Shown: positions 1,691 to 24,890 of the stretch, one piece after another | Position numbering within the stretch: the stretch's first letter is position 1 | Layout: each line of letters starts with the position of its first letter | From: Acetobacteraceae bacterium | GTDB taxonomy: Bacteria; Pseudomonadota; Alphaproteobacteria; Acetobacterales; Acetobacteraceae | Reading direction: 5' to 3' | Assembly (NCBI GenBank): GCA_003164135.1 | Contig: PLSD01000001.1 | Span: 1-64,000 of the forward strand | DNA length: 64,000 nucleotides | Notes under the pieces: generated by a model | Database searches by the model: none | The model's input: the letters and a program-made list of their open reading frames with translations, nothing else | What the model was told of the DNA's origin: nothing | Position numbers and translations under genes: made by a program

Positions 1691-1700
1691 ATGCGAATGG
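1691..1700 (-). promoter_or_regulatory. CCATTCGCAT box upstream of icmD
   Basis: Perfect copy of the 10-bp box, in gene-sense orientation, 60 nt before the icmD start. This is the longest box-to-start distance in the set. Confidence 0.6.
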
Positions 1701-1716
1701 CCGCAAAAAGTTTTCT

Positions 1717-2268
1717 TTAACCTCCAGTCTGAAAGAAATTCACGACGCCGGTAGCGATGGTCACGATGTTTACGCACATCACGCCAAAGACGAATTGAAT
1801 CGCGCAGGACGTCGGTGAACCATTGACGCGGCCGTTCACCATGCCGCGCCAGCGCATGATCGCCCAAAACACGCAGGCAGCACCAAACGCCTCGAAAAAA
1901 TATTGAAACATCGTCACCACATCAACCACACTTGCTTGTGGTGTTGCGCCGAGGCCGTTCGCCGCGTTCGGAGGTGTTGTCGGCGCGTAGCTGGTTAGCC
2001 CGATCACCAAATTGGTTCCCGCGCTGACATTCGCCATGCTGAGGAATTTCGGAAAACTCGCAAAGACACCACATAGTATCAGCGATACGAACGGAACCCA
2101 GGGCTGGCCGATATGCCGATGGTTATAGCGCGAATGTGGCTCCGACCATGTCCACAACGTCCAGGCAAAAAAGATGAAACAGCCGCAGGCCGCGAGATAG
2201 CAAAGCGTCGGCAGGATGACGGAAATGCAATCCGCGAGCGCCGTGGTAAAATCGACCAGACCTTGCAT
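1717..2268 (-). CDS. icmC: IcmC/DotE-like membrane protein
   Basis: A 183-residue protein with four hydrophobic segments (around VILPTLCYLAACGCFIFFAW, PWVPFVSLILCGVFASFPKF, FEAFGAACVFWAIM and IQFVFGVMCVNIVTIATGV). The topology and the position between icmG and icmD match IcmC/DotE, an inner-membrane component of type IVB systems related to IcmD. Start ATG 2268 has GAGGAG 7 bases upstream. It follows icmG by 21 nt and is probably co-transcribed with it. Confidence 0.65.
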   Translation of the reverse strand: MQGLVDFTTALADCISVILPTLCYLAACGCFIFFAWTLWTWSEPHSRYNHRHIGQPWVPFVSLILCGVFASFPKFLSMANVSAGTNLVIGLTSYAPTTPPNAANGLGATPQASVVDVVTMFQYFFEAFGAACVFWAIMRWRGMVNGRVNGSPTSCAIQFVFGVMCVNIVTIATGVVNFFQTGG

Positions 2269-2289
2269 GGCAGACTCCTCGGGCGATGA

Positions 2290-3696
2290 TTACTCGATGT
2301 TTCCGCTCTGCGTTTGCACGATCCAAGAATCACCTTGCTGGACGACGGCAAGAACCTTCCCATAGCCGGGGATGATATCTCCAACTTGGACCTCCAGTGG
2401 CGAACCGTCTCCGCCCACGACAGACAACATCGCCAAGCCAGGCGATGCCGCCTGCACATGGTACTGAGCAGCAACCGTGGGAGCGGTTGCTGGCAAGACA
2501 GTTGACGTTGGCGTGGTGGCCTTTGCCGGTGTTGCTTGCGGCGGCGATACGCCGGGGCTGGAGGAGTTCGCGGGGGCCGGTACGGGCACTACGGGAGCGG
2601 GAGCAATCGCTGCCTCGACGGCGCTACTTGAACCCACCTGCTCTGCTCCTGAGACTGCCGTCTGCGCCTCAAGCATCGATAAGCGCCGGTCATAGTCCTG
2701 TAGCTTGTTGGTGGTCAGCGCTGATAGCTGCTCAACGTCTGCTGTCAGGACAGCCTGCTTGATGCGATCATCCCGTTCCATGGTCGCCAGTTCCGTGACC
2801 AGCTGAAGCAACTGGGTCTGTTGCGCTGGCGAAAGCGCGCCCGCTTGCGCCGCCGCCAAAGTCGCGGCGCTGGTCTGTATCGGCGGAACCCCCGGTGCGG
2901 GGGCAGCTTGTGGGGCCGTTGTGGCGCCGTATTTCGCCAGCACCGAAACCTGACCACCTGGAGCGATGGCCGTCGGGGTGACAACCGGCGTAGGTGGCTT
3001 CGGAGGCAAGTTACTCGCCAGTTTGAGAGGGCTTCCGGCGAAGGCGGTAGCGGAGTTTGCGCCCAGGTTGGGCGTTGCGCCTTGCTTGTGAGGCGCCAGA
3101 AGGCCGGTGGGGGCCGCCTCCGCTGTTGAGCCGGTAATTGCGGTTGGCGGCGGATAGGGTTCTTGCGGGGCACCCTGCACACCGGGAGACGAAAGACCCT
3201 GCGGTGGGATGATGCCGCGATTGCTCGGCGGCATGCCAAGACGAAAACTATCGAGTTCGCTCAGCTCTACAGAAAGTGGTTGCGATACGTATTTTTGATG
3301 TAGAATGGCTGGCGGCGACTTCGGCAGCGGCACATTCGCCAGGGATGCCGAGGGCGCCAGAGGTGCGATGGCCCTGGGCGGCACTCCCGCCAGGTGTACT
3401 GTACTCGTCTGCGTTGCTTGTAATGGATGATGCGATCTTGCCGAGTGGACAAGGACGTAACCAGCCGCCATCAGCAGTGCCACCACCCCAACCCCAGCGT
3501 AGAGCGGGAAGTTATTTTTGCCGGATGCGCGCGATCGCCCGTCCGGCGCCGCAAACAATCCATCGGTTCCGGGCGCCGCCGTTTTTTCGCGGGCTTCATC
3601 AGATCCAGTGTAATCCAACGCCTCGCCGGGCAGACGAGCTACCTCATGTGCTTCTGAATCAGTGCCGTAAACGGAATCCACAGTAACGGAACTCAT
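2290..3696 (-). CDS. icmG: IcmG/DotF-like core-complex protein
   Basis: A 468-residue protein: a short acidic cytoplasmic N-terminus, one membrane helix (LYAGVGVVALLMAAGYVLV), a long Pro/Ala-rich periplasmic region, a coiled stretch (LQLVTELATMERDDRIKQAV) and a compact C-terminal domain containing VGDIIPGYGKVLAVVQQGD. The 'GD-IPGYG-V' motif is typical of the C-terminus of IcmG/DotF and IncI TraP. It is longer than Legionella IcmG (about 270 residues), mainly in the linker. ATG 3696 is preferred over the upstream start at 3738 because of GAGG about 6 bases upstream and the box at 3743-3752. Confidence 0.65.
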   Translation of the reverse strand: MSSVTVDSVYGTDSEAHEVARLPGEALDYTGSDEAREKTAAPGTDGLFAAPDGRSRASGKNNFPLYAGVGVVALLMAAGYVLVHSARSHHPLQATQTSTVHLAGVPPRAIAPLAPSASLANVPLPKSPPAILHQKYVSQPLSVELSELDSFRLGMPPSNRGIIPPQGLSSPGVQGAPQEPYPPPTAITGSTAEAAPTGLLAPHKQGATPNLGANSATAFAGSPLKLASNLPPKPPTPVVTPTAIAPGGQVSVLAKYGATTAPQAAPAPGVPPIQTSAATLAAAQAGALSPAQQTQLLQLVTELATMERDDRIKQAVLTADVEQLSALTTNKLQDYDRRLSMLEAQTAVSGAEQVGSSSAVEAAIAPAPVVPVPAPANSSSPGVSPPQATPAKATTPTSTVLPATAPTVAAQYHVQAASPGLAMLSVVGGDGSPLEVQVGDIIPGYGKVLAVVQQGDSWIVQTQSGNIE

Positions 3697-3742
3697 GATG
3701 ACCTCATCAAAAAAGGGCGACGCACAATCATCACGCACCTAT

Positions 3743-3752
3743 TTGCGAATGG
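3743..3752 (-). promoter_or_regulatory. CCATTCGCAA box upstream of icmG
   Basis: Sense-orientation copy of the 10-bp box in the 69-bp gap between icmE and icmG, 46 nt before the icmG start. It implies a separate promoter for icmG-icmC inside the icm cluster. Confidence 0.6.
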
Positions 3753-3765
3753 CCTTAAAAAAGAC

Positions 3766-5064
3766 TCAACTTCCGTAAGGCGCTTTTACATCCGAGATGA
3801 ACATCACACCGACCGCGACATTTGCATCGAGCGTAATCGTGGGGCCTTTCGGCGCATCCTGATCGAGCGTGCTGCCGATTTGCCCCGCCGCTGCGCCGGC
3901 CGCGACGCCAAGCTGTTGATGAAAATTCAAGTCTGTGCTGGACGTGGCGCCGCCCAGCGGACTGAGGACTTGCGTCGTATTCGAAGTCGTCGCCAGCGCA
4001 TTGCCCAGGCCTTGAACAAAAGCCGCAGCGGCCGGGAGAAGAAAGCGGGCGATATAGTGCTGATCCACGCCGGAGGCGACGGCCGCCTGCATCGTATCTG
4101 GTGCAATCACGACACCGGAACACGCAATCGGCTGACCATTATGGATGATCTGGTACACATTGATAATGAGCCGGTCATTCTCGCGCGAAAAATTGCCGAT
4201 CATGCGATCTCCGGCAATCGGCCCGCTATCTGCCTGCAACACCACCGGGCTGGTCTCGTCCGAGCTCAACGCCAGAATCGGATGCGCGAAAATCCCCCGC
4301 CCGGCCGGAATGATGACATGCGTGGCTGAGGCTACAGGATCTGGGTCGGCTGCGACACTCGGCGCCGCGCTTGATCCGGTTTGTCCAGCCGAGCCCGCAT
4401 TTGAAGCCGTACCCGTCGATGCCGGATCGCTTTGCGGCGGCGGCAACACCACGTCGGTCGTGGGCGGCCGGCCATTCCATTGGTTGAATAGCCCGTTAAT
4501 TGCGGACGTGTAGGAAGTTTGCTGCTGTGGATCACCGCCGCTATCCGCGGTTTGCACGCCTTGGGGCTGCGGGTCGGAAGTCCCAGGCAGCGGAGGTGGA
4601 AACACGGGAGCATCCACCTGTTGAACCACCGGAGGGGCCGGGGGAGGGGGAGGCGCCGGTTGGACAAAATGCTGCGCCGGCAAAGGTGCGGCACTTGCCG
4701 CAGATGGCGGAAATACTGGCGCATCAACGGCAACTGGCACGCTGGCCGCGAGAGGCGGCGTATATGAAGCTCCCTTTCTCAAGGCGGTATTTGCAGCTGC
4801 GTCGTTGGCGTTTAATGCCAACGCATTTTGCTCCTGATCGCTGTTCAGGCCGGCGGGATTGGCATCAACTGCCTGCATCCGCGCGTCATAGGAGACAAGC
4901 GGCTTGCTTTTGCCATCCAGGGTAATGGCGACCAGCCCTGCCACCAGCGCCAGGCCTGAAACGCTGATAATCAACAGCCGGCGCGGGCCAGCGCGCCCAG
5001 CGCCGCTCCACATGCCCCGCTTTGAAAAAACAGATGGTTTTTTCGGAATTGCCGCGTCTGACAT
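3766..5064 (-). CDS. icmE: IcmE/DotG-like TrbI/VirB10-type core channel protein
   Basis: A 432-residue protein with an N-terminal cytoplasmic tail, one membrane helix (LLIISVSGLALVAGLVAI), a Pro-rich linker (QPAPPPPPAPPVVQQ) and a C-terminal TrbI/VirB10-like domain with VIIPAGRGIFAHPILALSSD, then GDRMIGNFSREND and an Ala/Gly-rich antenna-like stretch. Its size is close to IncI TraO (about 430) and far below Legionella DotG (about 1050), whose pentapeptide repeats are absent here. The start is ATG 5064, overlapping the icmK stop as TGATG; the longer frame running into icmK is not credible. Confidence 0.8.
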   Translation of the reverse strand: MSDAAIPKKPSVFSKRGMWSGAGRAGPRRLLIISVSGLALVAGLVAITLDGKSKPLVSYDARMQAVDANPAGLNSDQEQNALALNANDAAANTALRKGASYTPPLAASVPVAVDAPVFPPSAASAAPLPAQHFVQPAPPPPPAPPVVQQVDAPVFPPPLPGTSDPQPQGVQTADSGGDPQQQTSYTSAINGLFNQWNGRPPTTDVVLPPPQSDPASTGTASNAGSAGQTGSSAAPSVAADPDPVASATHVIIPAGRGIFAHPILALSSDETSPVVLQADSGPIAGDRMIGNFSRENDRLIINVYQIIHNGQPIACSGVVIAPDTMQAAVASGVDQHYIARFLLPAAAAFVQGLGNALATTSNTTQVLSPLGGATSSTDLNFHQQLGVAAGAAAGQIGSTLDQDAPKGPTITLDANVAVGVMFISDVKAPYGS

Positions 5065-6056
5065 CACTGCCCCTCCTTCAACTCTGCGGAAACCGTCCGG
5101 CCGTCCACCGAAAGGAGGACAACAGGTGTATCGGGCACTGCATAAACCGTGGTGCCCGCCTCGGCTTCTGAAGCCGTCCATTCAGGCGAGAGCAGCGTGT
5201 CGCTGGTCCGCAAATAAACATTCCCGCCAAGCTTCCAGGCGCGCAGATCCTCGGGTGACACGCCTTCAACCGAAAGCGGGGTGGCATCGGCCGGCGGAAC
5301 ACCCTCCAACATGCCGGTGAGATATGGAGCGCCTGTATCAGGCGCGTCCTGCTCCGGCGGCACCGTTGCCACCAGCGCATTCGGCCCCGGCCCGGCAACA
5401 TGGATCGACAGATCAGCGTCATAGCTGCTGGCGCCCGACATCAATAAAAATGTCAGCGGCTTTGGCGCACCCTGCAGCGAAACCACAAGGCCACCACGAG
5501 GTGCGAGCGACATCGGCGTGATTTCCAGGACGTTACTGCCCTTTGCCGGGGTGCAAACCAAAAACCCGATCGCCTCTACTGATGGTCCGCCGCCACCGCC
5601 ATTTTGCTGCACATTGCAGTCGCTTCCCGTCGCCACCGACGCCGGATCGGAATTGGTGTCCCATTCCACGGGCCAAGGCTGACCAGTGCTGTCGAAGAAA
5701 CTGACCGCGCTGGGATAACCCTTAACCGTGCTTATGATGCTGATGGCAACGCCAGGCGCGAAAGAAACATTCACCTCCCGGCTTTGCGGCTCGGCCAGGG
5801 CCGTCCCTGCTTGTTCCGCCGCCTGCTGGTTTGCCTGATAGCGCTGCGCGAGCTGCGTGATCATGGCCGGCGTCAGAGGAATCGCAGATTGCACGGCTTG
5901 TTCCTGAGCGGAGGCATTGCCATTTTGGCTTGAGCCGCCCGCTGTTTGGCCGAAGGCAAGTCCGCCCCACAAAAGCCCCCCAGTCAGTGTGGCGGCGCAA
6001 ACCGATGCCATCATTTGTGGTCGCGTTCTGGTATATCTCATGACAAATCCGTTCAT
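5064..6056 (-). CDS. icmK: IcmK/DotH-like outer-membrane core protein
   Basis: A 330-residue secreted protein with a signal peptide (MMASVCAATLTGGLLWGGLAFGQ), then REVNVSFAPGVAISIISTVKGYPSAVSFFDSTGQPW, the recognisable core of IcmK/DotH (TraN in IncI), and a C-terminal domain comparable to VirB9. With IcmE/DotG and lipoproteins DotC/DotD it forms the envelope-spanning channel. It overlaps icmL by ATGA and icmE by TGATG, so the three genes are translationally coupled. Confidence 0.8.
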   Translation of the reverse strand: MNGFVMRYTRTRPQMMASVCAATLTGGLLWGGLAFGQTAGGSSQNGNASAQEQAVQSAIPLTPAMITQLAQRYQANQQAAEQAGTALAEPQSREVNVSFAPGVAISIISTVKGYPSAVSFFDSTGQPWPVEWDTNSDPASVATGSDCNVQQNGGGGGPSVEAIGFLVCTPAKGSNVLEITPMSLAPRGGLVVSLQGAPKPLTFLLMSGASSYDADLSIHVAGPGPNALVATVPPEQDAPDTGAPYLTGMLEGVPPADATPLSVEGVSPEDLRAWKLGGNVYLRTSDTLLSPEWTASEAEAGTTVYAVPDTPVVLLSVDGRTVSAELKEGQ

Positions 6057-6682
6057 CGCTGCGCCGCCACCAACTGATCGATTGCTAAGCCTTTGGGATA
6101 ATTCGAGTCGTTTGTGCGAATGACGAGCGCGGAAATCATGTAGTTATTCGTGCTCGTCTGGTTGACGTTTTCGCAGGTCTGCGAGATCGGAACCTGTACC
6201 TGATAGGCCAGGGCGCCATTGTCGAAGATCGTCTGCACGATCAGCGCCGCGCGCTGCGTTTGCGCATGACAAAGCAAGCGCGCGGATTTCAGCTCATTGA
6301 AGTTTCCAGAGCTGATAAAGGAATTGGCGAACGTATTCCAACCTCGTAACGTGAACTGATGGGAAGCCCCGCTGAGCTCTGTGGGATAATTATAATAGTC
6401 CAGATTATATGGGGCCAGGATTGCGGACACGGTCCAGTTAAGCAAATCGGTGTCGCCCATCACGGGACCGGTCAGCGGTTGTATTGGAATAGGATTGTTC
6501 AACTCATCAACGCTGAAATATTTTGATGGCTCAGGATGTGTCCATATCCAGCTGTCATGGATGGCGAACGCTATATTCAGACCCATCGAGATCATCAGCG
6601 CCGTTAAGACCCGATTGACCAACGAGCCGGCAAAATCAGGATCAGTAATCCGACGCGCGACGGCCGCTTGCTGATTACGCAT
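6053..6682 (-). CDS. icmL: IcmL/DotI-like VirB8-type inner-membrane protein
   Basis: A 209-residue protein with one N-terminal membrane helix (VLTALMISMGLNIAFAI) followed by a VirB8-like periplasmic domain containing YFSVDELNNPIPIQPLTGP and a WNTFANSFISSGNF segment, characteristic of IcmL/DotI (TraM in IncI). ATG 6682 is chosen because GGAG lies 8 bases upstream and only eight bases then overlap the preceding gene; a TTG at 6724 would add 14 residues without a ribosome site. First gene of the coupled icmL-icmK-icmE set. Confidence 0.85.
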   Translation of the reverse strand: MRNQQAAVARRITDPDFAGSLVNRVLTALMISMGLNIAFAIHDSWIWTHPEPSKYFSVDELNNPIPIQPLTGPVMGDTDLLNWTVSAILAPYNLDYYNYPTELSGASHQFTLRGWNTFANSFISSGNFNELKSARLLCHAQTQRAALIVQTIFDNGALAYQVQVPISQTCENVNQTSTNNYMISALVIRTNDSNYPKGLAIDQLVAAQR

Positions 6683-7964
6683 GGGCTGCACTCCAAGAGT
6701 TGCTGCTGCAGCCGTTTCTGCCAACGTCTTTTGCGAATGGCAGCATTATTTCGCGCGGGGATGGCTTCACGTAGTGGCCTTTTAGAATTGATATTTTATT
6801 GTATCGCCCCTCGATCTGATGGATACGTTTGCGGTTTTTTGGCGAGAAACGAATCTTATTTGCGTCAGTCTTATGCACCCAGAACCAGTCACCTTTTCCA
6901 TCGGGCGTTTCGCTCGCGGTTTTGCAATGTTGTAGCACGTAGCCAGCCTGCGCGAACGTCGCGCGAGCGCAACGCTCATCAAAGATGTCACCGAATTTTC
7001 TGCGATCTTCATCAACAGGAATACCGCAGTTCGTGCGGAAGGTGCGAAACGCCCCTTTCTTCATGCCGACGCGCTTGGCAGCCTCTTGATACTTTAAGCC
7101 GCCCATCATCAGCATGCCGCAAATCCATACGATGAGTTTGTTCGTGAGTGGGCGGCGCGTTTTACCAATCCATCCTAGGTCGGCGCCGAAATCAACGTCT
7201 GCCTCGGTCTTCGGAATGACGAATTCGGGAGCTGAGAGAGCAAGTTGAGCGATTTCCGGTTGATTTTGCTTGAGACCAAGCTTCGCTGGTTGGCGATCCG
7301 TCCCGCCAACCACACCGAAAAGCGGCAGCTCGCGCTGTCCGATGGAGCCGCCAAAAAACCCGGTGGTTTTTACGCCGCCCGCCTCATTTTCGCGTTGTGA
7401 AAATGCTTCCGCGGCCTCGCGACCACGATAGGTAATGACGCCAGCAACCCGGCCGCACGCTGCTTCCGGTGTGGCCGGCACGGGTGATTGCATTGAATTC
7501 CGCCAAACAAAACCCGGCTCTGGATCGCGCAGTGTTTTCGGATCGGGCTTGTGCAACAATTTGCGCGGCGGTGGCCGAAGCCCCAAACGCCGCGCTTTCG
7601 AGCGCACCGCTCCAGCCGATCTCCCCCCAAGCCTTTCTCCAATGATTTCAGGGTGTACCCCCGCAATACGCCAAGCGATCAGCCTTATCGTGTCCAGGAC
7701 CGACCAGCCGTGAGCCCGCGCCTTGAGTAAGGGACGATCATGCGGCGTGGTCAGTGCGAGCCGCGCCAGGTGGTCGTCTAGAAGTGATCGCGTTAACCCC
7801 AGATACAGACAAAGCGCCTCAATCCCCTGACCGGCCGCGACCATCCCGCGGAGGACCTCATCAAAGGGAAACAGCACAACCGCCGCGAGAGAGCGCAACA
7901 CGGGTGGGACGCCCGAAGGCCCCGGCGGTCTACGCTCCTCAGCTTTGGCTAATGCACCTGACAC
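6675..7964 (-). CDS. putative DNA-binding regulator with GcrA-like helix-turn-helix segment
   Basis: A 429-residue soluble protein that I cannot name. Around residues 75-130 the sequence includes IGERLGGRSAGAVRSKARRL, close in pattern to the DNA-binding part of GcrA-like proteins (W/I-A-xxLGG-xxx-AVxxKxxRLGL). A second possible HTH is YQEAAKRVGMKKGAFRTFRT near residue 300. The start is GTG 7964 with GGAG 6 bases upstream; TTG 7976 is an alternative. Its 3' end overlaps icmL by eight bases. Its position ahead of the icm genes suggests a regulator of transfer genes, which is inference. Confidence 0.5.
   Translation of the reverse strand: MSGALAKAEERRPPGPSGVPPVLRSLAAVVLFPFDEVLRGMVAAGQGIEALCLYLGLTRSLLDDHLARLALTTPHDRPLLKARAHGWSVLDTIRLIAWRIAGVHPEIIGERLGGRSAGAVRSKARRLGLRPPPRKLLHKPDPKTLRDPEPGFVWRNSMQSPVPATPEAACGRVAGVITYRGREAAEAFSQRENEAGGVKTTGFFGGSIGQRELPLFGVVGGTDRQPAKLGLKQNQPEIAQLALSAPEFVIPKTEADVDFGADLGWIGKTRRPLTNKLIVWICGMLMMGGLKYQEAAKRVGMKKGAFRTFRTNCGIPVDEDRRKFGDIFDERCARATFAQAGYVLQHCKTASETPDGKGDWFWVHKTDANKIRFSPKNRKRIHQIEGRYNKISILKGHYVKPSPREIMLPFAKDVGRNGCSSNSWSAAHA
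6731..6740 (-). promoter_or_regulatory. CCATTCGCAA box upstream of icmL
   Basis: Sense-orientation copy of the box, 48 nt before the icmL start, lying inside the 3' end of the upstream coding sequence. The cluster icmL-icmK-icmE may therefore have its own promoter within that gene. Confidence 0.6.
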
Positions 7965-8091
7965 CCGCGTCTCCAAGGGAAAGACGGGGCGAAAGGTAAT
8001 TCTATTATAACTTAATTGTCCAGAATAAACTGCACTGATTTGTGTGTTAACGTGTAAATTCTACCGTACTTTGGACTAAACCACTACAAAA

Positions 8092-8580
8092 TTAGGGCTT
8101 TTTCGTCGCCGTTTGAGCGTCTATTAGCTTCCCAAGTTTCTCTCGAAGATCTTTGTAAGCCCCGATTTCACCAAGCAGTGTCTCGTTGTGCTGAGCCCGC
8201 CGCGCCAACTCTCTTTCATTCAGGCGCTGCTCCTCCGCCAAGTTGGTGGTAACGCAAGCCACAAGCGTATCGAGCGTGCGATATAAAATCTCTAAGTCAG
8301 CGCCGGATGGTGTTGCCAGGGGATGGCCAGGGATCAAGTCGCGGATATCAACATCCAGCGCTTTTGCCATTTTATCCAACGTTCGGATTGAGATGTTGGT
8401 GGTCCCGTATTCTAACTCATAGATATAATTTTGCGTCACGCCTGCCCGCTCTCCCAGTTGGGTCTGGGTCAAGCCCGCACGCTTTCTAGCTTCCTGCAAC
8501 CTCTGCGCGATGATCCTTGCGATGTCGTTGGGATCTTCTACACCAACATTTTGTTCGTTACTTTTCGATGTCCGTGCCAT
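8092..8580 (-). CDS. XRE-family transcriptional regulator
   Basis: A 162-residue protein with a clear Cro/CI helix-turn-helix at about residues 24-80 (RLQEARKRAGLTQTQLGERA, then GVTQNYIYELEYGTTNISIRTL) and a C-terminal coiled-coil stretch (AEEQRLNERELARRAQHNE). It probably binds DNA as a dimer and represses or activates transfer genes. ATG 8580 is preferred; the frame continues upstream to 8688 but that extension is Cys/Arg-rich and covers the divergent promoter. A degenerate copy of the CCATTCGCAW box lies 34 nt upstream, so it may belong to the regulon it controls. Confidence 0.8.
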   Translation of the reverse strand: MARTSKSNEQNVGVEDPNDIARIIAQRLQEARKRAGLTQTQLGERAGVTQNYIYELEYGTTNISIRTLDKMAKALDVDIRDLIPGHPLATPSGADLEILYRTLDTLVACVTTNLAEEQRLNERELARRAQHNETLLGEIGAYKDLREKLGKLIDAQTATKKP

Positions 8581-8614
8581 TTCTCGCCTACCAAATACAT
8601 CTAGCCAACAAGCC

Positions 8615-8624
8615 ACGCGAATGG
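8615..8624 (-). promoter_or_regulatory. degenerate box CCATTCGCGT upstream of the XRE regulator gene
   Basis: Matches the box at eight of ten positions with A or T allowed last, in sense orientation, 34 nt before the start at 8580. Confidence 0.4.
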
Positions 8625-8667: not shown

Positions 8668-8677
8668 CCGTTCGTAT
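8668..8677 (+). promoter_or_regulatory. degenerate box CCGTTCGTAT upstream of the N0/TcpQ-like gene
   Basis: Two mismatches to CCATTCGCAT, but the same orientation and the same 45-nt distance to the start at 8723 as in the perfect copies. Confidence 0.4.
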
Positions 8678-9143: not shown

Positions 9144-9153
9144 CCATTCGCAT
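9144..9153 (+). promoter_or_regulatory. CCATTCGCAT box upstream of the 9198 operon
   Basis: Perfect sense-orientation copy of the box, 44 nt before the start at 9198 and just after the preceding stop codon. Confidence 0.6.
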
Positions 9154-9170
9154 TTGACCTCGACAATCTG

Positions 9171-9189
9171 ACTCCGGAACTTCCGGAGT
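9171..9189 (+). promoter_or_regulatory. perfect palindrome covering the ribosome binding site of the 9198 gene
   Basis: ACTCCGGAA-C-TTCCGGAGT can fold as a 7-bp stem with a 5-base loop. The GGAG at 9185-9188 is the likely ribosome binding site of the gene at 9198, so the stem would hide it. It could act as a translational switch, an operator for a dimeric protein, or neither. Confidence 0.45.
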
Positions 9190-9197: not shown

Positions 9198-9668
9198 ATG
9201 CTCGATTTCACAGAGGCTGACGTTGTCGCCTGGTTCTCGCCGATACGTCCGCCCACCCGTCAAAACAACTGGCCACCGGTTATCCGGGCAATCGAGCGGG
9301 GACGCAGCGTAGAACCCCTGCTCCACGAGTTGGGCACCGTCCTATCCGAACTTGCCATCCAGGCCCCAGCCATTCTCCCGAAAGCCCTCCTGGGCGATCC
9401 TGTCCAGCATGACCTTCAAACAGTGATAGCCCAGCTAGGAGCGGCGCGGCTCCTTCGGCTCGTCGACTGGTTTTCCGGCACCCTGCCCGGCGCCCCGCAG
9501 CTCCTCGCCCAGCTCTCTCAAGGCAGAACGGCGAATGCTCAAGCGATAAATTCATCGCTCCGCGCCCTTACGGCGCGCGACACGCTTACCCGGATGTTCG
9601 GCCCCGATCGCGTGGCCTGGCTCCAATCCTGCGCCGAGGCCGCGACCAACCCCCAGGAGAACTCCTAA
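9198..9668 (+). CDS. cytoplasmic hypothetical protein of the transfer region
   Basis: A 156-residue soluble, helix-rich protein with no signal peptide or membrane segment and no family I recognise. It begins MLDFTEADVVAWFSPIRPPT and has a Leu-rich middle. It heads a likely operon with the exported proteins at 9668 and 10232 (TAATG overlap with the next gene) and carries the transfer-region box and a palindrome over its ribosome site. Small acidic chaperone-like or adaptor proteins (IcmS/IcmW-like) are common in type IVB clusters, but nothing in the sequence proves that role. Confidence 0.5.
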   Translation: MLDFTEADVVAWFSPIRPPTRQNNWPPVIRAIERGRSVEPLLHELGTVLSELAIQAPAILPKALLGDPVQHDLQTVIAQLGAARLLRLVDWFSGTLPGAPQLLAQLSQGRTANAQAINSSLRALTARDTLTRMFGPDRVAWLQSCAEAATNPQENS

Positions 9669-10219
9669 TGCTACGACACAAACTCGCGCTGGCTGTCCTA
9701 ATTACGGCGGCACCGCCGGCCGCTGGGGCACTCGCTCAAACCACCACCACGGGAAGCGTCGGTTGTACCACCATCGTGCAAGCCGCAGCGAATGGCATGA
9801 CCGCGAGGATGGCTGCCGATAATCAAACCATCAGCCAGCCCACCAGCGTCACGCAATTGTCCTGCTTGAACAATTTCTTCAATGGCGTTGGCCTTAATCT
9901 CGTAACCAACCTGCTGAACCCCGCAAATCTGCTGCAAACCGTCGAAGGCCAGCTTTGCAACGCGGTTACCAGCACCTGGAATTCCTGGCTGGGCCACGTG
10001 CAATGCGGTCTGACTGTAACAGGGTTCAATTTTGGTTTCGGCGGGCTTGGAGGCGGATTGTCCTGTCCGAAACTCACCTTCGGCGGCGGTGGGCCTCCAA
10101 TCGGTTCAATCGGGCTTGGGGTCGGTACAAATGGGTCGGGGAACGGTCTCTACATCAACGGCAATGGCCTAACGCCGCCAGGCTACACATTACCGCAAAC
10201 CCCTGTCGGCAGCTACTAA
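9668..10219 (+). CDS. exported Gly-rich protein of the transfer region
   Basis: A 183-residue protein with a signal peptide (MLRHKLALAVLITAAPPAAGALAQ). The mature part has four cysteines, in SVGCTTI, LSCLNNF, QLCNAV and VQCGL, followed by one more in LSCPKL and a Gly/Asn-rich tail (IGLGVGTNGSGNGLYINGNG). It overlaps the preceding gene by TAATG and is followed after 12 nt by another exported protein. Probably a periplasmic or surface component of the transfer apparatus; family not recognised. Confidence 0.5.
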   Translation: MLRHKLALAVLITAAPPAAGALAQTTTTGSVGCTTIVQAAANGMTARMAADNQTISQPTSVTQLSCLNNFFNGVGLNLVTNLLNPANLLQTVEGQLCNAVTSTWNSWLGHVQCGLTVTGFNFGFGGLGGGLSCPKLTFGGGGPPIGSIGLGVGTNGSGNGLYINGNGLTPPGYTLPQTPVGSY

Positions 10220-13099: not shown

Positions 13100-13109
13100 C
13101 CATTCGCAT
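13100..13109 (+). promoter_or_regulatory. CCATTCGCAT box upstream of dotA
   Basis: Perfect sense-orientation copy, 44 nt before the dotA start, in the 70-bp gap after the preceding gene. Confidence 0.65.
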
Positions 13110-13153
13110 CATACTGTGGGACCCTGTCGCTGTAGCCAAGCAGAGGTCCCCCA

Positions 13154-15517
13154 ATGCGTAAGCCAAATGCAGTATCTCTCATTCTCGCGGTAGGCTTCGT
13201 GGCCATTGCGGGACCCGCGTTTGCCCAGGCCACCAACCCCTATAATGTCAGCTGGTCTTCGCTCAATCCGCAGGGTGATTGGTCAGCAACTGTTCTCCAG
13301 TCGCTGTTTCCGATTCCGGGCTTCACCCAAGGCGTATCGACGGGCAATGAAGCGACGGTGATCGGCCAATTGGTCGGACAGTTCACCGGCTTTGTCGCGG
13401 CGATCGCCTGCGCCTTCGTCTCCTACAACATCATCATGAACATTCACCGCGCAGCCGAGAGCTCGCAAGTGCTCGGGAGCGGCCAGACCTGGATGGCGGC
13501 TGTTCGGATCGGCTTCGCCGCCATCATGATGTTTCCCCTCGGAGGCGGGTTCTGCGCCGGTCAAGAAATGGTCATGCAGGGAGCCATGTGGGGGGTCGGC
13601 ATGGCGAAATCACTTTACACCAATGCCATCCAGGCCGTGGGACCGGACGCGGTCGTGATTGCTACGCCACAGATCCCGGGGACAAGCAACATTGTCGCCA
13701 ACCTGATCAACGACCAGCTTTGCATGGACCTGGTCAATCTTGCCGGAAACGGTTCGGGAACCGGAACCCCATTGATTCCCGCACCGCAGCCTTTGTCCGT
13801 CAACGATGGCCAGGGAAGCGGTTTCGTGACCTGGAGCTATTCTCTGGCCACGGGTGATGGCACCGGTAATCCCGTTTGCGGATCGGTCACCGTCCGCGAA
13901 GCCGCCTCGAATGCGACGACCATTGCCGGCGTAAACGTCGATATGGCAGCAACCCAGCAAGCAATCCTTACCAACGTGATCAACGGCGATCTGCAATCCC
14001 AGGTCCAAAGCGTCGCACAAAATCTTTGGCTCAATAAAACGGCTGCTTCGCTGGCACCCCTTCAGGGGATCTACGATTCTGCCGTCGCCGATTACACCAA
14101 TCTGCTGACAACGGCAGCCACCGGCGTTCAAAGTCAAATTAATACCGCAATTCAGGGCAATGCGACCGCTGCCCGCAACGGTAATCTCGATCTTCTCAAC
14201 AGCGAACAGCAGCAATCCACGCTAGGTTGGACCGCCGCCGGCGCCTATTATCTGGAAATCGCCCGCCTGAATGCCGAAACGCTCTCGGTGATGAATGCCA
14301 CCCCGGATGTTACGACACCAACCTATGACGGCCTAGGCCCATCTCTCTCCGATGACCTGGCACCAGTCAAATCCGCGGCCGACTCCTACATGCAGGCATT
14401 ACTTGAGACCGCCACCACCGCCGATGGCTCAAATCCGCCGAGCGGGATTCCAACGACGCTGGCCTCCGCGACCGACGCTGCAAAAGGCCAGACTGTGCTG
14501 GCGCAGCTTTTCAACTCCATTGGACTGAACGATTGGTTCCTCAATAAAATAACAGCCTTCCTTTTGCCGCCCACCCAGGTTTGGACTGACCCCTTTGGTG
14601 GTTTGATGTCCCTTGGCCAAGTCCTGATGAATGTCTCTTTGGCGGCGTTCGCTGCCGCTGGCATCCTCGCCTCCGGCACCGGCACCGCCGCAACAACGGT
14701 TTGGAACGTGCTGACCGGCAATTGGGCTGCGGCCGCAGCCACGGTCGCCATCCATCCGCTCATATCGTTTCTTTCCATCCCTATTTTCATGCTTCTGACG
14801 TCGATCCTCGTGCCCGGCATGATGATCTCTTACGTCCTACCGATGGTACCCTATGTCATGTGGATGGCCGGAGTGTGCGGCTGGATCATCCTGGTCTGTG
14901 AGGCCATGATTGCTGTGCCGCTCTGGATGCTCGCACATATGACGATAGGCGGAGATGGGCTCCATGGCCGGGCAATTGAAGGCTGGGGCTTGTTGTTCAA
15001 TGTCATGTTCCGCCCGGTCTTGATGATCATCGGCCTCTTTCTCAGCTACTTCGTGTTTGATTGCATGTCCTGGCTGATCCGGGAAAGCTTCGGGATCGCC
15101 GTCGGTTTCATCTTGGCCAATGGGTGGTTCGTCACGAACCTCATTGGCATCGTGGTCCTGCTGAATATCTTCGTGATGCTGCAAGTCACGACCGCCATCA
15201 TGTCATTCCGGATGATCGCCTTGTTACCTCACCACCTTCCCAGGCTTCTCGGTTTTACCGCTGCCAACCGGGTCGATATCGAGGCCTTCCAACAGCAGGC
15301 AGCCTGGGGTGCCGGGCAGGGTGTGGCCGGTGGCACAAAACAAGCGCTCGGAGAAGGGTTCCGAGCAGTCAAAAACGTTGCTGATAATAGAAAAAACTTG
15401 CCCAGCGGCCCCTCAAAGCTTATTTCTGGACAGGCAACCAGTGGTGGCGAAGAAAGCCTGGATTCCACGTTGCAAGCCACTACCAATCAAGGTGATCAAG
15501 GCACAGACGATGTTTAA
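13154..15517 (+). CDS. dotA: DotA/TraY-family polytopic membrane protein
   Basis: A 787-residue protein with a cleavable signal peptide ending GPAFAQA, a membrane segment at about 70-95, a conserved region with GQTWMAAVRIGFAAIMMFPL and GGGFCAGQEMVMQGAMWGVGM, a long periplasmic domain (about 150-440), and a C-terminal block of several hydrophobic helices (for example LISFLSIPIFMLLTSILVPG and MFRPVLMIIGLFLSYFVF). This layout defines DotA/TraY. The length is close to IncI TraY (about 745) and shorter than Legionella DotA (about 1050). Own promoter box upstream; the next gene overlaps its 3' end by eight bases. Confidence 0.9.
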   Translation: MRKPNAVSLILAVGFVAIAGPAFAQATNPYNVSWSSLNPQGDWSATVLQSLFPIPGFTQGVSTGNEATVIGQLVGQFTGFVAAIACAFVSYNIIMNIHRAAESSQVLGSGQTWMAAVRIGFAAIMMFPLGGGFCAGQEMVMQGAMWGVGMAKSLYTNAIQAVGPDAVVIATPQIPGTSNIVANLINDQLCMDLVNLAGNGSGTGTPLIPAPQPLSVNDGQGSGFVTWSYSLATGDGTGNPVCGSVTVREAASNATTIAGVNVDMAATQQAILTNVINGDLQSQVQSVAQNLWLNKTAASLAPLQGIYDSAVADYTNLLTTAATGVQSQINTAIQGNATAARNGNLDLLNSEQQQSTLGWTAAGAYYLEIARLNAETLSVMNATPDVTTPTYDGLGPSLSDDLAPVKSAADSYMQALLETATTADGSNPPSGIPTTLASATDAAKGQTVLAQLFNSIGLNDWFLNKITAFLLPPTQVWTDPFGGLMSLGQVLMNVSLAAFAAAGILASGTGTAATTVWNVLTGNWAAAAATVAIHPLISFLSIPIFMLLTSILVPGMMISYVLPMVPYVMWMAGVCGWIILVCEAMIAVPLWMLAHMTIGGDGLHGRAIEGWGLLFNVMFRPVLMIIGLFLSYFVFDCMSWLIRESFGIAVGFILANGWFVTNLIGIVVLLNIFVMLQVTTAIMSFRMIALLPHHLPRLLGFTAANRVDIEAFQQQAAWGAGQGVAGGTKQALGEGFRAVKNVADNRKNLPSGPSKLISGQATSGGEESLDSTLQATTNQGDQGTDDV

Positions 15518-15959: not shown

Positions 15960-15969
15960 CCATTCGCAT
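15960..15969 (+). promoter_or_regulatory. CCATTCGCAT box upstream of the 16012 lipoprotein gene
   Basis: Perfect sense-orientation copy, 42 nt before the start at 16012. Confidence 0.6.
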
Positions 15970-16011
15970 TTTGATGCCGCATAGCTTGGCCCGCAACCAC
16001 GGAGCCAAGTC

Positions 16012-16317
16012 ATGCGCAAATCATTTCTCATTCTCGCCGGTCTCCTAGCCCTTTCGGCGTGCGACCATGGCAATGTTAAACCGGTCGCGAGTTACTCGGC
16101 GCCGCCGGCCCCCCCGATACGAAACCCGACCTTCAATCCGTATGCACCCTACGGTGATGCCAATGCGACCTGGGAGCCGCCAACCGTCAATCAGGATGGC
16201 ACAGTAGTAAAACCGTCGGAGCCATCCAGCCAAGCCAGCAGGCCGCCTTATGAATTCGCACCATGGGCTACTGGAGCAGCGGGCGGCAGCCAAAATGCGC
16301 CGCCGGGCACATTCTAA
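16012..16317 (+). CDS. small Pro-rich lipoprotein
   Basis: A 101-residue protein with a lipoprotein signal (MRKSFLILAGLLALSAC, lipobox LSAC) and a Pro/Tyr/Asn-rich mature part (NPTFNPYAPYGDANATWEPP). It has no folded domain that I recognise. Its own promoter box ties it to the transfer regulon; small outer-membrane lipoproteins (DotC, DotD, TraH-like) are part of the type IVB outer core, but the sequence does not identify it as one of these. Confidence 0.6.
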   Translation: MRKSFLILAGLLALSACDHGNVKPVASYSAPPAPPIRNPTFNPYAPYGDANATWEPPTVNQDGTVVKPSEPSSQASRPPYEFAPWATGAAGGSQNAPPGTF

Positions 16318-17231: not shown

Positions 17232-17241
17232 CGATTCGCAA
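17232..17241 (+). promoter_or_regulatory. near-match box CGATTCGCAA upstream of the 17288 gene
   Basis: One internal mismatch to CCATTCGCAA, same orientation, 46 nt before the start at 17288. Confidence 0.45.
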
Positions 17242-17287
17242 ATGTATCCGTCACGCTGACTCCAATCCAGCGAGAGGGGTTATTAAC

Positions 17288-18097: not shown

Positions 18098-18109
18098 AGG
18101 AGAATGAGC

Positions 18110-18523: not shown

Positions 18524-18526
18524 TCC

Positions 18527-18552: not shown

Positions 18553-18577
18553 GTTTAGGGACTTTTGGGGTATTCCC

Positions 18578-19693: not shown

Positions 19694-19805
19694 ACGAACT
19701 TATAGGACATTTAGACGGGTTGGCAGGTAATTCTGGCTTTATCGCAGCGATTGTATATCGCATGTCCCTCTTCGATCATCTCGCGCAGTTCACCGAGGCA
19801 GCGGA

Positions 19806-20827: not shown

Positions 20828-20831
20828 CCGT

Positions 20832-21875
20832 TCAGCTCCCAATCGCATCAACAAAAGCTTGAACATTCTGCGGGACACCGACAAGCTGCCCCTCAGTTCC
20901 GTCCAGCTTGCGCCATACAAATGTGGGCGTGGCCTTCAAACCGATCGCTTGCGCGATCAGCATGTTCTGCTTCAGATTGTCCTGAGCCTGGCCCGAGGGT
21001 TGATTGCCTTCGCTGCCAGATTGCCATGCACCGACGATTTGATCCGGCGGATCGCTTAATAGAGCCATCGCGCTTTTTGTGCTCTGACCGCCATCTTCGC
21101 CATCCAAGATCGTCAATGGAATGACGGAAATTTCGATCTGGTTTTGCTCCGCGAAAGGCTTTAGCATCTGAAATGCACGGATGGAGTAGATGCATTGCGG
21201 GTCGATCAGCATATATAAATGTTTCGCGGGATTGTTGCCGATCGTCCCGAAAGTCGCGTTCTGAACCAATGGCAATACCGCCGCGGGCGCTGCTTGCGGA
21301 CCATCTGGCCCGTTGACTTCGACAGTTGGGATGGCCCCAGGAATATTGGCAACCTCCGTTTTGGTGATGTTTTTCCCGGCGGCATCCCACAACACGCCAG
21401 GAATCACCCGCTGATTATCCGGTGTTGCGTAGAAGACCTGGAACATCGAACCGCTTCGAACGAAATAGCCTTCCAGGCCATGAACCGACCCGATATCGGT
21501 GATATTGCCGGCGGCAACCGTTTTGAGTTGCGCTAACGTCATCTCGATTGGAACCCCTGACACCGCCGCATTTCCATCCGGGGCCACGTCGAAGAGCATG
21601 AATTGATTGCCGCTCCGGGCGGCGATCTGGTGCATGCCGTCTGCCGTACCGAGATCGGTAATTGTGGCGCCCGCGCTTGCGATGTGCATAACGAACGGAG
21701 TGCCCGTCAACGAGGCTGGGGGCGAAGTTGGCGTGACGGGCGCAAGCGATGGAGCCCCCGGCACCCGCGGTGTGTTGCTTGTAAACGCTATCGGCCCGGC
21801 CGTGGCGCAATGAGGATTGGCTGCAGCAACAGCCGGAAAGAAAACAACGGATGCGAGGCTGAGTAGAAGGGAACG
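20832..21875 (-). CDS. DsbC/DsbG-like exported thioredoxin-fold protein with a single active-site cysteine
   Basis: A 347-residue protein with a signal peptide (MRSLLLSLASVVFFPAVAAA) and a C-terminal thioredoxin-like domain: LYMLIDPQCIYSIRAFQMLK, then a helical insert and ATPTFVWRKLDG with the cis-proline typical of the fold. The place of the CxxC motif reads C-I-Y-S, so only one active-site cysteine remains; it might isomerise or hold disulfides rather than oxidise. Two earlier segments (DLGTADGMHQIAARSGNQFM and DIGSVHGLEGYFVRSGSMFQ) look like an internal repeat. Box 44 nt upstream of ATG 21875; first gene of the icmV operon. Confidence 0.65.
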   Translation of the reverse strand, partial: RSLLLSLASVVFFPAVAAANPHCATAGPIAFTSNTPRVPGAPSLAPVTPTSPPASLTGTPFVMHIASAGATITDLGTADGMHQIAARSGNQFMLFDVAPDGNAAVSGVPIEMTLAQLKTVAAGNITDIGSVHGLEGYFVRSGSMFQVFYATPDNQRVIPGVLWDAAGKNITKTEVANIPGAIPTVEVNGPDGPQAAPAAVLPLVQNATFGTIGNNPAKHLYMLIDPQCIYSIRAFQMLKPFAEQNQIEISVIPLTILDGEDGGQSTKSAMALLSDPPDQIVGAWQSGSEGNQPSGQAQDNLKQNMLIAQAIGLKATPTFVWRKLDGTEGQLVGVPQNVQAFVDAIGS

Positions 21876-21919
21876 CATGGCTAACTCCTCTGTGATGGAG
21901 AGGAGCATCCGCTCTACAA

Positions 21920-21929
21920 ATGCGAATGG
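21920..21929 (-). promoter_or_regulatory. CCATTCGCAT box upstream of the DsbC-like gene
   Basis: Perfect sense-orientation copy, 44 nt before the start at 21875. Confidence 0.6.
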
Positions 21930-21935
21930 CAGGGT

Positions 21936-22427: not shown

Positions 22428-23155
22428 CCTTCATGCCTCCGACCCCGGTTAGCGATCCCACGTCGATGGTGGCTCGTGGTTGGTTCCGAATTCCCCGTCC
22501 AAACAGGTGAGACCACAAATACCATGACGCTGACCAAAATTAAGTTTAATCCACAGCCGAGCTAAAACGATGCCAGTCCGATATAGTTTACCGCCGCATA
22601 AGTCTATTTGATTTTATCTTATTTTGATTTTTTCTTATCAAGTGCATTAAATGCGTGCCCACGAGATCAACCTCTACCGATTCATGGAGAGCGCTCGCAT
22701 TGTAGGAGGCCATTGATAGCAGCCAAATGAGGACGCGGGAATCTTTTTTTCCCAGGGCAGTCGAGCATTTACGTTTCTTAATCTAATGCGGATACATCGC
22801 TGTCTTTTATGACAGTTTAGTGTCGACAAGCTGAGAAGGTTGCTATATCGCGCGGAAAGTCTCACTCCAAAATTGTCGCGGTTGTTGGGAGGCGTAGAGT
22901 TTTTTTATGCATATTTCCGGTTTGCAAAAATTTCCTTTCCATCTCTGCGTATAAATTAGGCACAGATTCATTGTAGTTCTCAATAATTCTTCATAATAAA
23001 ATGTAAATTACTTGGCCACTGAGGACGTTGTCGTGTTCGTTTGTGGTTACAAATAATTTAATACCGAAATCGAATCGTAGCATTCCCTTCGCTTACATAA
23101 TATTTGTCGATAATTTAGGCGCAGATGAACAATCGGCGCTGTGCTTTTAGGCGAT
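22428..23155. other. AT-rich gene-free stretch
   Basis: About 730 bases with no convincing gene. The only open frame (22674-22865, minus, 63 codons) has no plausible ribosome site and unusual composition. The stretch is far richer in A/T than the rest, with runs such as ATTTTATCTTATTTTGATTT near 22611. I see no iterons, clear repeats or RNA gene; it could contain promoters or an insertion scar. Confidence 0.4.
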
Positions 23156-24844
23156 TTAGTGCAAACCATATCGCGGTTCTAAATTTGCAGCGTCAACAAC
23201 ACGCCAGTTCCTTAAGATCACATCGATCTTTTCGAACACCGCTTTCACATCCTGCAACTCACGTTCAAGCCGTTCCCCATTTGATAAATGGGCGTGAGAT
23301 AATTCTCCGGATAGCAAACGTGCCCCCGCCGAAATCCGTAATGCCCCGTATGGTTTAGCTCCATTTTTGTTCGGCAGTGAAATCGGCTGACCAATATGGC
23401 ATATTCTCGATGCGGCTAGCCGCTCATGTGGCAGAATCCCAGATAGGTCCGTGTTCAGCCAACGATAAAGCGCGTGCATTTTCTCAAATTCCAGAAAATG
23501 CTGACCAGACTGCGGATCGATAATAGCAAATACGAAAATGGATATCATCCGCTCCCATGCTTCTTCGCGGATATCACGGATCGGTTGCGGTGTGGGCAAT
23601 AATGCAAAACGCGGCCGCGCTGAAATGGCCGCTCTCGCCGTTTGCCCGAAACTTTCGAGAATTTCGGCACGGTTCTCAGCCGGGACTTCGAAAAAGGCCT
23701 GCATCTCGGCAAGAGCTGCATGCCAGCGCAGAGCCAGGCCAATATTGCCGCCGGGCTGAAGCATGGTTGCGGCTGGGCAGCCAGGGAAGAAATCATCTTG
23801 CGAAAAATAGGCATTTAGGCCAGCAGGAATTTTATTCCTGACGAGACGCCGTGCGATCCTGCTTGGAATTAGCACCGCACCAGAGAATGGAGGTCCAGTA
23901 AAAAACTTCGATCCGGTGATCAGCACGGCGGCATCCAGTGCAAGGTATCGAGCGATCGAGGACGGAGATAGCCTTGTCTGGCAAGCATCGACGACGATAT
24001 CGAATTTGCTTCCATATCTCCGGCGCAGCTCACCAAGAAGACTTGGCCGGGGCGCCAGTATTCCCGTTTTTGAGAGGTCAAGCGCATGAAGGAGAACGCG
24101 TTCTCCGCGCTCTATGGCGCCTTTCACGGCATCGCGGATGTCCGCCTCGATCCCGTCAATGGGTTTCAGTTGTGCGTCACCGTTCCGAACGGCGATGGTG
24201 CAAAGCCTTGTGTCTGGCCGGAAGCCGTCGATCAAGGTTCCGGGCTCCACCTTTGCTCCCAACGCGGTATCAACTGCAAAGTGAAGTCCGCGGGCGGCGA
24301 GGGGCACACCCCGGCCGGTTTCTTCCGGCGCGATCAGAATATTGCAGATCGGCGCGTCCTCATTGCCGCCGATATGGGTCAGCGCCAGCGCCAGGAGCTC
24401 GGCGTCCGTGCCGGAGGCTGAAAGTACGATTTCTGTCCCGGCTTCCAGGCGCAATAGCCGCGCCAATTTCTCGCGCACCTCGCCCAAGCAGGTTTTTATA
24501 GCCGCTCTTTCATCACGCTCAGCCAGCGCCGATCTTCTCGCGCGCAGCCGTGCCGCATCGGCTGCCATATAACCTCGCTCGGAGACAGACGATGCAGTGG
24601 AGGAGGCGAAGGTAATTGCCCAGGGTCTCGGCCGATGGCTACATCCGTACCCATTCAGTAAGGTCTCCGGGTCAGTCCGCAGGCGGATATCGCCCCCGGT
24701 CGCCATCAACGCGTGAGTCGGCAGAGACAAACTCAGACTCTCACCCCGCGTTGGCTGCGTCTTTGTCAGGGAGAAAGGATCGTTTCTCCCGCGCGGACCG
24801 TGCAATTCTGCGCTTCCGGCTTCATGTGCATGCCAAACCACCAT
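23156..24844 (-). CDS. PLP-dependent aminotransferase-fold enzyme (class V-like) under transfer-box control
   Basis: A 562-residue protein with a fold-type I PLP layout: LVLSASGTDAELLALAL-type phosphate-binding region (VLSASGTDAELLALALTHIG near residue 140), the aspartate in FDIVVDACQTRLSPSS, and the probable Schiff-base lysine in ITGSKFFTGPPFSGAVL. Members include cysteine desulfurases and SelA-like enzymes, but the N-terminal 100 residues and the low overall similarity give no substrate. ATG 24844 has GGAGG 6 bases upstream, and a CCATTCGCAA box lies 36 nt before it, so it is probably expressed with the transfer genes. Confidence 0.7.
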   Translation of the reverse strand: MVVWHAHEAGSAELHGPRGRNDPFSLTKTQPTRGESLSLSLPTHALMATGGDIRLRTDPETLLNGYGCSHRPRPWAITFASSTASSVSERGYMAADAARLRARRSALAERDERAAIKTCLGEVREKLARLLRLEAGTEIVLSASGTDAELLALALTHIGGNEDAPICNILIAPEETGRGVPLAARGLHFAVDTALGAKVEPGTLIDGFRPDTRLCTIAVRNGDAQLKPIDGIEADIRDAVKGAIERGERVLLHALDLSKTGILAPRPSLLGELRRRYGSKFDIVVDACQTRLSPSSIARYLALDAAVLITGSKFFTGPPFSGAVLIPSRIARRLVRNKIPAGLNAYFSQDDFFPGCPAATMLQPGGNIGLALRWHAALAEMQAFFEVPAENRAEILESFGQTARAAISARPRFALLPTPQPIRDIREEAWERMISIFVFAIIDPQSGQHFLEFEKMHALYRWLNTDLSGILPHERLAASRICHIGQPISLPNKNGAKPYGALRISAGARLLSGELSHAHLSNGERLERELQDVKAVFEKIDVILRNWRVVDAANLEPRYGLH

Positions 24845-24880
24845 ATCACCCTCCGTTTGTAGGCAGGGTCACACCGTATT

Positions 24881-24890
24881 TTGCGAATGG
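24881..24890 (-). promoter_or_regulatory. CCATTCGCAA box upstream of the PLP enzyme gene
   Basis: Sense-orientation copy, 36 nt before the start at 24844. It is the only copy attached to a gene with no obvious secretion role. Confidence 0.55.

Follow-up and report, generated by a model that had tools for sequence, protein, structure and literature searches.

A conserved box upstream of type IVB transfer genes as the candidate upstream half of a hairpin-nested promoter

In the leader of bacteriophage T4 gene e, as in those of soc, 49 and I-TevI, the ribosome site is closed in the longer read-through RNA; at gene e, RNA from late promoters lying just upstream is missing the 5' part of the helix and is translated well (PMC3014915). 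For the Bacillus subtilis gene sigG, a hairpin has been proposed to block translation of read-through RNA; transcripts of the gene's own promoter are described as unable to fold into it (PMC5942855). T4 middle promoters combine a sigma70 -10 element with a MotA box, which has its centre near -30 and stands in for the -35 element (PMC6755090). In the Alphaproteobacteria, GcrA is a sigma70 cofactor (PMC7403470), and for GcrA-activated sites in Caulobacter the proposed extended motif is TGATTCG or YGAKTCK (PMC7987155); here and below, these five articles are cited for the excerpts available. The present analysis concerns a short box, CCATTCGCAW, which precedes type IVB conjugative transfer genes in a stretch of 64,000 nucleotides (nt) from an Acetobacteraceae bacterium (assembly GCA_003164135.1, contig PLSD01000001.1, positions 1-64,000; hereafter the window, on the contig designated C5), together with related boxes on other plasmids.

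We put at roughly two in three the probability that the box contributes the upstream half to a plasmid-specific promoter, nested in a hairpin and used by sigma70 with an activator, likely the protein designated X, while read-through RNA stays untranslated. This reading starts from features of the sequence, namely the box, -10-like bases at a fixed distance from it, a leader hairpin, covariation at dotA and the position of X upstream of icmL, from which we infer the start point, the use of sigma70, X as the reader and the block to translation. In the mechanism proposed, host RNA polymerase with housekeeping sigma70 would read a unit of fixed internal distances, YCRKTCGC-N13-A-N3-T, helped by a plasmid-encoded activator at -32 to -24; this activator would likely be X, and the site it reads would be of the GcrA type but not open to methylation. 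The -10 region would double as the 5' arm of the hairpin and the loop would contain the start point, while the Shine-Dalgarno sequence, at some sites together with the start codon, would belong to the 3' arm. RNA running in from the upstream gene would fold and go untranslated, RNA begun at the box promoter would lack the 5' arm and be translated, and each transfer unit, deaf to read-through, would depend for its expression on the firing of its own activator-dependent promoter.

The box, its -10-like bases and the leader hairpin

Exact matches to CCATTCGCAW number eight in the window, compared with a mean of 0.72 (maximum 3) in 100 dinucleotide shuffles, which bears out the eight copies listed by a first-pass annotation of the window. 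All eight lie, as it had stated, in gene-sense orientation, with an open frame of at least 100 amino acids downstream and 21-60 nt between the end of the box and a candidate start. The constant spacing to the start codon that it described was overstated: over 11 window sites, degenerate copies included, the distance from box end to start spans 34-60 nt (in coordinate order 60, 46, 48, 34, 45, 44, 44, 42, 46, 41 and 36 nt), the 60-nt start at the 1691 box being a GTG with an ATG at 29 nt and a GTG at 21 nt likewise open. Across 88 sites, the distance from core to start runs from 36 to 67 nt. The fixed distance of the box is the one to the -10-like bases, rather than to the start codon.

Relatives were identified through DotH searches, which returned alphaproteobacterial plasmids sharing one gene order (dotA unit, XRE regulator, protein X, icmL, dotH, dotG); in the pOB3b1 copy (L033) the locus is fragmented and icmL, X and XRE are absent. 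An analysis of k-mer enrichment ahead of starts recovered the box in the loci of the window's own genome and in some relatives, and missed it in several; the relatives' sites were therefore picked by eye, with box patterns set per plasmid. When the 90 sites of this first set, chosen by eye on box and start, were aligned on the core TTCGC, A was found at +18 (A18) in 83 and T at +22 (T22) in 79. For a hold-out set, 67 loci were fetched through icmL and every TTCGC or GTCGCAT located 45-60 nt before a start was taken, blind to the -10 region. A18 and T22 occurred together in 92 of the 114 resulting core-plus-start pairs, against 424 of 3993 cores at large, a background that contains the 114 sites (315/3862 for the other cores alone). 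The -10-like hexamer, [CG]A...T, stands at one distance from the box, the next best of 34 offsets reaching 12/114. Removal of near-duplicates, both within the hold-out and against the first set, left 62/80 with 8 at the next offset, and differing strictness gave 67/85, 62/80 or 54/72. The hold-out is partly dependent on the first set, from which its core was fixed, and includes the same species or near kin (Acidocella aquatica, beside the window, Methylocella tundrae, Roseomonas mucosa and Komagataeibacter europaeus). When each core position was freed in turn and offsets 16-20 were compared, the motif stood out at offset 18 alone, and the freed first position held T in 119 cases, G in 30, A in 5 and C in 2.

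The A at -11 and the T at -7 are the main sigma70 contacts in the -10 element. A18 and T22, four bases apart, look like these two bases in a hexamer that differs from TATAAT at -12, -9 and -8. On this assignment transcription would begin about 29 nt downstream of the core T, and the box, spanning -32 to -24, would occupy the place of the -35 element. The fixed relation to the transcription start foreseen by the first-pass annotation would thereby hold, through a -10-like hexamer at one fixed offset. At the putative start, purines are slightly preferred (60%) in the first set and not in the hold-out (A 0.29, G 0.17). A block rich in A/T upstream of the core, seen in both sets, was not used as evidence, being present too in pairs that lack the -10 bases.

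A scan of the whole genome counted 37 exact boxes against 12 for a reversed-word control, with the -10 pair concentrated on contigs bearing transfer genes. On contigs C5, C54, C35 and C89, which carry such genes, A18 accompanies 19/19 exact copies and both bases accompany 13/19; contig C102, grouped with them solely by its boxes, adds three copies, all with A18 and two with both bases, for a joint count of 22/22 and 15/22. On the remaining contigs, one of 15 copies has both bases. An extra exact copy just beyond the window (C5:65584) has A18 and lacks T22. Among the three degenerate copies that had been listed at 8615, 8668 and 17232, the last retains the -10 bases and a hairpin. The other two were dropped from the set: at 8615..8624 (minus strand) A18 is absent and the hairpin is weak (6.0 kcal/mol, against a mean of 8.7 at other starts), and at 8668..8677 (plus strand) both -10 bases are absent and the hairpin is weaker still (3.8 against 8.7 kcal/mol).

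Leader folding was scored, per site, as the energy required to open the stretch from the Shine-Dalgarno sequence to the start codon, using 88 of the 90 first-set sites (the two without a start being left out). In read-through RNA this cost averaged 13.1 kcal/mol at box sites, compared with 8.7 at 263 other starts in the same loci (P = 4e-10) and 8.8 in shuffled leaders of the box sites themselves. In RNA begun at the putative start (+29), it was 5.8 kcal/mol at box sites and 6.9 at other starts (P = 0.02). The cost drops as the 5' end of the RNA moves between -16 and -1, and, measured from the core, the loop centres on +32.75 (with quartiles of 30.5 and 34.6), or +4 to +5 from the putative start. 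In the hold-out, where near-duplicate removal reduced the 114 pairs to 95, the 76 with both -10 bases gave 14.2 kcal/mol versus 9.4 when shuffled (P = 1e-7), and the 19 without them gave 10.9. Upstream of dotA, a helix of 13 pairs, drawn by eye on the same sequences on which it was scored, is paired in 81.8% of cells over 28 distinct leaders and in at most 48.6% when slid; its covariation is 0.294 versus 0.147 in shuffles, a score that none of 500 shuffles reaches. The alignment takes in 28 of 29 leaders (that of L044 being identical to the window's), and its hold-out leaders were preselected for A18 and T22, bases that lie inside the helix. In most relatives' dotA leaders, the -10 hexamer CATCCT is the very arm that pairs with the Shine-Dalgarno sequence. 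These predicted folds suggest that read-through RNA would hide the ribosome-binding site and that RNA begun at the putative start would leave it open. The hairpin, the -10 element and the plasmid-specific change of the box described below are additional to what the first-pass annotation reported.

Several results weigh against a nested promoter. T22 is missing from 7 of the 22 exact copies on the grouped contigs of the window's own genome, and the number of near-duplicates in the hold-out weakens the promoter reading a little. At dotA, seven pairs are changed on both sides versus 5.5 in shuffles, and 93 of 500 shuffles reach seven; the window's own dotA leader is, moreover, out of register with the covarying helix, and its opening cost falls little in RNA from its own start (Table 1). 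Some box sites show no relief from starting inside the hairpin, among them that of icmL in the window (6731), which gains nothing.

The candidate reader and the competing explanations

The boxes of relatives vary between plasmids and are mostly uniform within one plasmid, with forms such as CC[AG]TTCGCACC in Roseomonas, TCATTCGCGC in Methylosinus and GTCGCAT[CG]AT in Kozakia and Acetobacter. Because the box changes in concert on each plasmid, its sequence points to a trans-acting reader borne by the plasmid itself. Protein X lies upstream of icmL in 63 of the 67 loci, the other four being contigs that end close to or inside icmL; hits in these loci arise partly by construction, since 27 of the 28 proteins in the X model were taken from them as the frame upstream of icmL. 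Two rows of one alignment (L101 and L102 in A4) are a different protein and were excluded from alignments A5 and A6, X lying further upstream in both loci. Structure models of X contain three predicted helix-turn-helix units (predicted local distance difference test scores 83 and 73, predicted template modelling scores 0.50 and 0.46). By family profile the middle unit matches GcrA (PDB 7ye1_G, E = 1.1e-6), and Pfam GcrA is matched by 4 of 11 family members (E up to 1, best 5.9e-6); the unit is central in X, whereas that of GcrA is N-terminal. Among 289 sampled genomes of the class, with at most six candidates scored per genome, a full-length match to X was found in the window's own genome alone, and in 15 others the match is confined to the middle unit, within open frames that are 119-241 codons long.

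Written as Y-C-R-K-T-C-G-C, the box differs from YGAKTCK at the G of GANTC and often at the following A, and has the same choice of T or G at K; Y[CG]RKTCK is found in 96 of 149 composites. The box thus resembles the GcrA motif without its methylatable G, and this resemblance of sequence is the best clue to X as the putative reader. The association of box and protein was also assessed by distance tests: over 35 loci, the partial correlation was 0.33 for the first helix-turn-helix unit of X, 0.12 for the GcrA-like second unit and 0.07 for that of XRE; without the five loci with GTCGC boxes, it was 0.12, 0.19 and 0.32 for the three units of X and 0.18 for XRE.

The attribution to X meets objections of its own. 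The distance tests appear to favour X weakly, and not through its middle unit in particular. Taken alone, the window's X does not match Pfam GcrA at E = 1, no counterpart of the sigma-binding half of GcrA is recognised in X (profile matches extend over the helix-turn-helix and shortly beyond it), and Foldseek returned no match for X at E = 0.001, a result that is uninformative. YGAKTCK occurs in 1 of the 149 composites and a true GANTC in 6 of 92 hold-out promoters; with both so rare, the link between box and GcrA motif rests on resemblance. In the excerpt of PMC7987155, GcrA is reported to show no extended-motif preference in Brevundimonas, which weakens a GcrA-type reading a little.

The box was flagged ahead of 2 of 32 X genes, a scarcity that might fit a master regulator. 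Regions rich in A/T, some with TTGAC-like words, lie upstream of X genes in the window and in loci L037, L045, L048, L050, L054, L072 and L074, and in these seven loci the X gene has, by eye, its own Shine-Dalgarno hairpin. X itself may be nested in the same manner under an ordinary promoter.

That box and -10 element form the promoter but are activated by the XRE protein rather than by X is unlikely. XRE is as widespread as X, being present ahead of icmL in those same 63 loci out of 67, and once the GTCGC loci are left out it tracks the box about as well as the second unit of X. The binding sites of XRE-type regulators are usually inverted repeats, which the box is not; the GcrA-like unit of X, the similarity of the box to the GcrA motif and the distance tests over all 35 loci lean the other way. 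On present sequence evidence X, the protein that the first-pass annotation had drawn at 6675-7964, seems the better candidate reader, by a margin that is not wide.

Improbable, too, is an action of the box in RNA, as a site in the 5' leader at which a small RNA or an RNA-binding protein opens the hairpin, with no promoter involved. Such an element would account for the supported hairpin, for the six of eight exact boxes that sit 6-16 nt past the stop codon of the upstream frame, and for the concerted change of the box on each plasmid, as a trans-acting RNA would need; one relative, a Methylosinus C49 plasmid with related transfer genes, also has two neighbouring genes annotated as ProQ/FinO-family (L034:1769-2514). 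It would not explain why A18 and T22 keep one distance from the box although the start distance varies by more than 20 nt, or why A18 is kept at 9144, where the hairpin begins further downstream, and no Rfam match was found anywhere in the window up to E = 1. A purely RNA-level element, the initial idea suggested by the hairpins, was set aside after the fixed -10-like bases appeared. A search for antisense partners, confined to the window, found GCGAATGG at 9788, 12511 and 30119, besides the complements of the box sites.

Recognition of both elements by an alternative sigma factor encoded on the plasmid is very improbable. The departures of the -10 from TATAAT at -12, -9 and -8 would suit one, as would a weak Sigma70_r4_2 match in X (E = 0.25 with the protein of the window, 0.024 with the best family member) and a match to the same region-4 model, below its cut-off (E = 0.008), in the resolvase-like frame 39432-40172. 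No sigma factor was found among the 40 frames scanned with Pfam, a scan confined to the window, X matches no other sigma region, and the GC-rich -10 positions are explicable by pairing with the Shine-Dalgarno arm. A gene annotated as sigma-70 family lies near a TonB receptor gene on one relative's plasmid. The first-pass annotation had read the box as a core promoter element served either by a special sigma factor or by an activator; that reading gains support, and of the two an activator acting with the host's sigma70 is preferred because the -10 keeps just its A and T and the 40 frames hold no sigma factor. Least credible is that GC-rich leaders in which the Shine-Dalgarno sequence is conserved form these hairpins by chance, since, although shuffled leaders still pair somewhat and the 19 pairs without -10 bases also fold, the observed excess over shuffles and other starts recurs in the hold-out and dotA covaries.

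Beyond the promoter itself, we advance more tentatively, as a proposition close to evenly balanced, that type IVB plasmids of several alphaproteobacterial families share a doubly locked conjugation regulon, in which the -10 element is the anti-Shine-Dalgarno arm and transcription by a plasmid-borne, methylation-independent relative of the cell-cycle factor GcrA is the sole route to translatable transfer mRNA. If so, plasmids would have made a private key out of an activator of the host cell cycle. The nested promoter provides a testable account of how a large, little-studied class of conjugative plasmids could keep its transfer machine silent and activate it as one regulon. It would also be a compact case of transcription and translation being controlled through shared bases, and the motif YCRKTCGC-N13-A-N3-T ahead of a start would allow transfer genes and their promoters to be annotated. 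No description of regulon-wide nested hairpin promoters combined with a GcrA-like reader was found in the open-licence literature searched.

Window features and neighbouring genes

Table 1. Boxes, putative promoter elements, leader hairpins and candidate regulators in the window. RT and Own, cost (kcal/mol) of opening the ribosome site in read-through RNA and in RNA begun at the putative start.
Feature	Coordinates	Strand	-10 bases	Putative start	Gene downstream	Hairpin	RT	Own	Remarks
Box CCATTCGCAT, exact	1691..1700	-	1680-1675	1668	ends 819, start 1630 (GTG) or 1661 (ATG), minus strand	1652-1667	11.2	6.8	hairpin begins at putative start, hence partly removed in own RNA
Box CCATTCGCAA, exact	3743..3752	-	3732-3727	3720	2290-3696, minus strand; weak IcmG/DotF match	arms within 3696-3733	10.2	6.0	
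Box CCATTCGCAA, exact	6731..6740	-			icmL, 6053-6682		9.0	11.0	A18 present, T22 absent
Box CCATTCGCAT, exact	9144..9153	+	9164-9169 (CAATCT)	9176	9198-9668	9172-9188	18.9	8.7	
Box CCATTCGCAT, exact	13100..13109	+	13120-13125	13132	dotA, 13154-15517	13118-13150	8.4	6.4	
Box CCATTCGCAT, exact	15960..15969	+			16012-16317	15985-16009	21.2	3.5	A18 present, T22 absent
Box CGATTCGCAA, degenerate	17232..17241	+	17252-17257		from 17288	17254-17272	12.3	7.3	includes GATTC, a true GANTC
Box CCATTCGCAT, exact	21920..21929	-	21909-21904	21897	20832-21878 (DsbG-like, below cut-off)	21885-21905	11.4	5.8	
Box CCATTCGCAA, exact	24881..24890	-	24870-24865	24858	23156-24844	24848-24869	14.6	3.3	
Protein X	6675..7976	-							three predicted helix-turn-helix units, middle one GcrA-like by family profile
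XRE-type helix-turn-helix regulator	8092..8580	-							

Among the gene names given by the first-pass annotation, icmL (Pfam T4BSS_DotI_IcmL) and dotA (TIGR04346) stand, icmG corresponds to a weak match far below cut-off, and icmD found no support in those window frames that were scanned with profiles. The same genome carries a second, related transfer set on C54 (L011) and C35 (L012), with DotH 95% and a neighbouring protein 81% identical; this second type IVB set appears split over these two contigs, C89 (L026) and C102 (L014), and a box at L026:983 precedes a DotD-like lipoprotein gene, matched below the model's cut-off. On several plasmids, a gene of 101-103 codons near dotA has in its leader a second kept word, GCATGATG or GCATGGTG, at the -10 position after the box (for example L034:8933-8979 and L036:7856-7904), which resembles the Acetobacter-type box.

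Elsewhere in the window, adjoining DNA polymerase III alpha-like and impB-like genes, which we take to be a mutagenesis cassette, are followed by UvrD-like, SRAP and second impB-like genes (26688-32180 and 32372-36325), and a frame of 1784 codons (45041-50395) has weak NACHT/STAND ATPase matches below cut-off. On an Acetobacter plasmid, type I-F CRISPR effector genes (csy1-3 and cas3f as annotated) lie beside the transfer genes (L042:37437-40864), and the Methylosinus C49 plasmid has an RtcB-family RNA ligase gene adjoining prfH (L034:39587-40879).

Comparison with described systems

Within the excerpts cited, nested-hairpin control is known for T4 gene e and proposed for sigG, and T4 middle promoters are an established case of an activator box near -30. 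As in gene e, the Shine-Dalgarno sequence or start codon is predicted, from the folds and the covariation at dotA, to lie in a helix of the read-through RNA. The putative start is placed inside that helix, and RNA begun there is predicted to be open. The arrangement differs from gene e in being repeated before many conjugation units on many plasmids and in combining a plasmid box with a sigma70-like -10, and from sigG in that the latter is a single gene with an unrelated regulator. The spacing is, by sequence, similar to that of T4 middle promoters, with start and activator being putative here; the box differs in sequence and has its centre near -28, and it is paired with a weak -10, unlike T4 middle promoters, for which a good -10 is required. 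With respect to GcrA, the middle unit of X matches its DNA-binding domain by family profile and the box resembles YGAKTCK, but X has three helix-turn-helix units and no recognised sigma-interacting domain, and its presumed site is without a methylatable GANTC.

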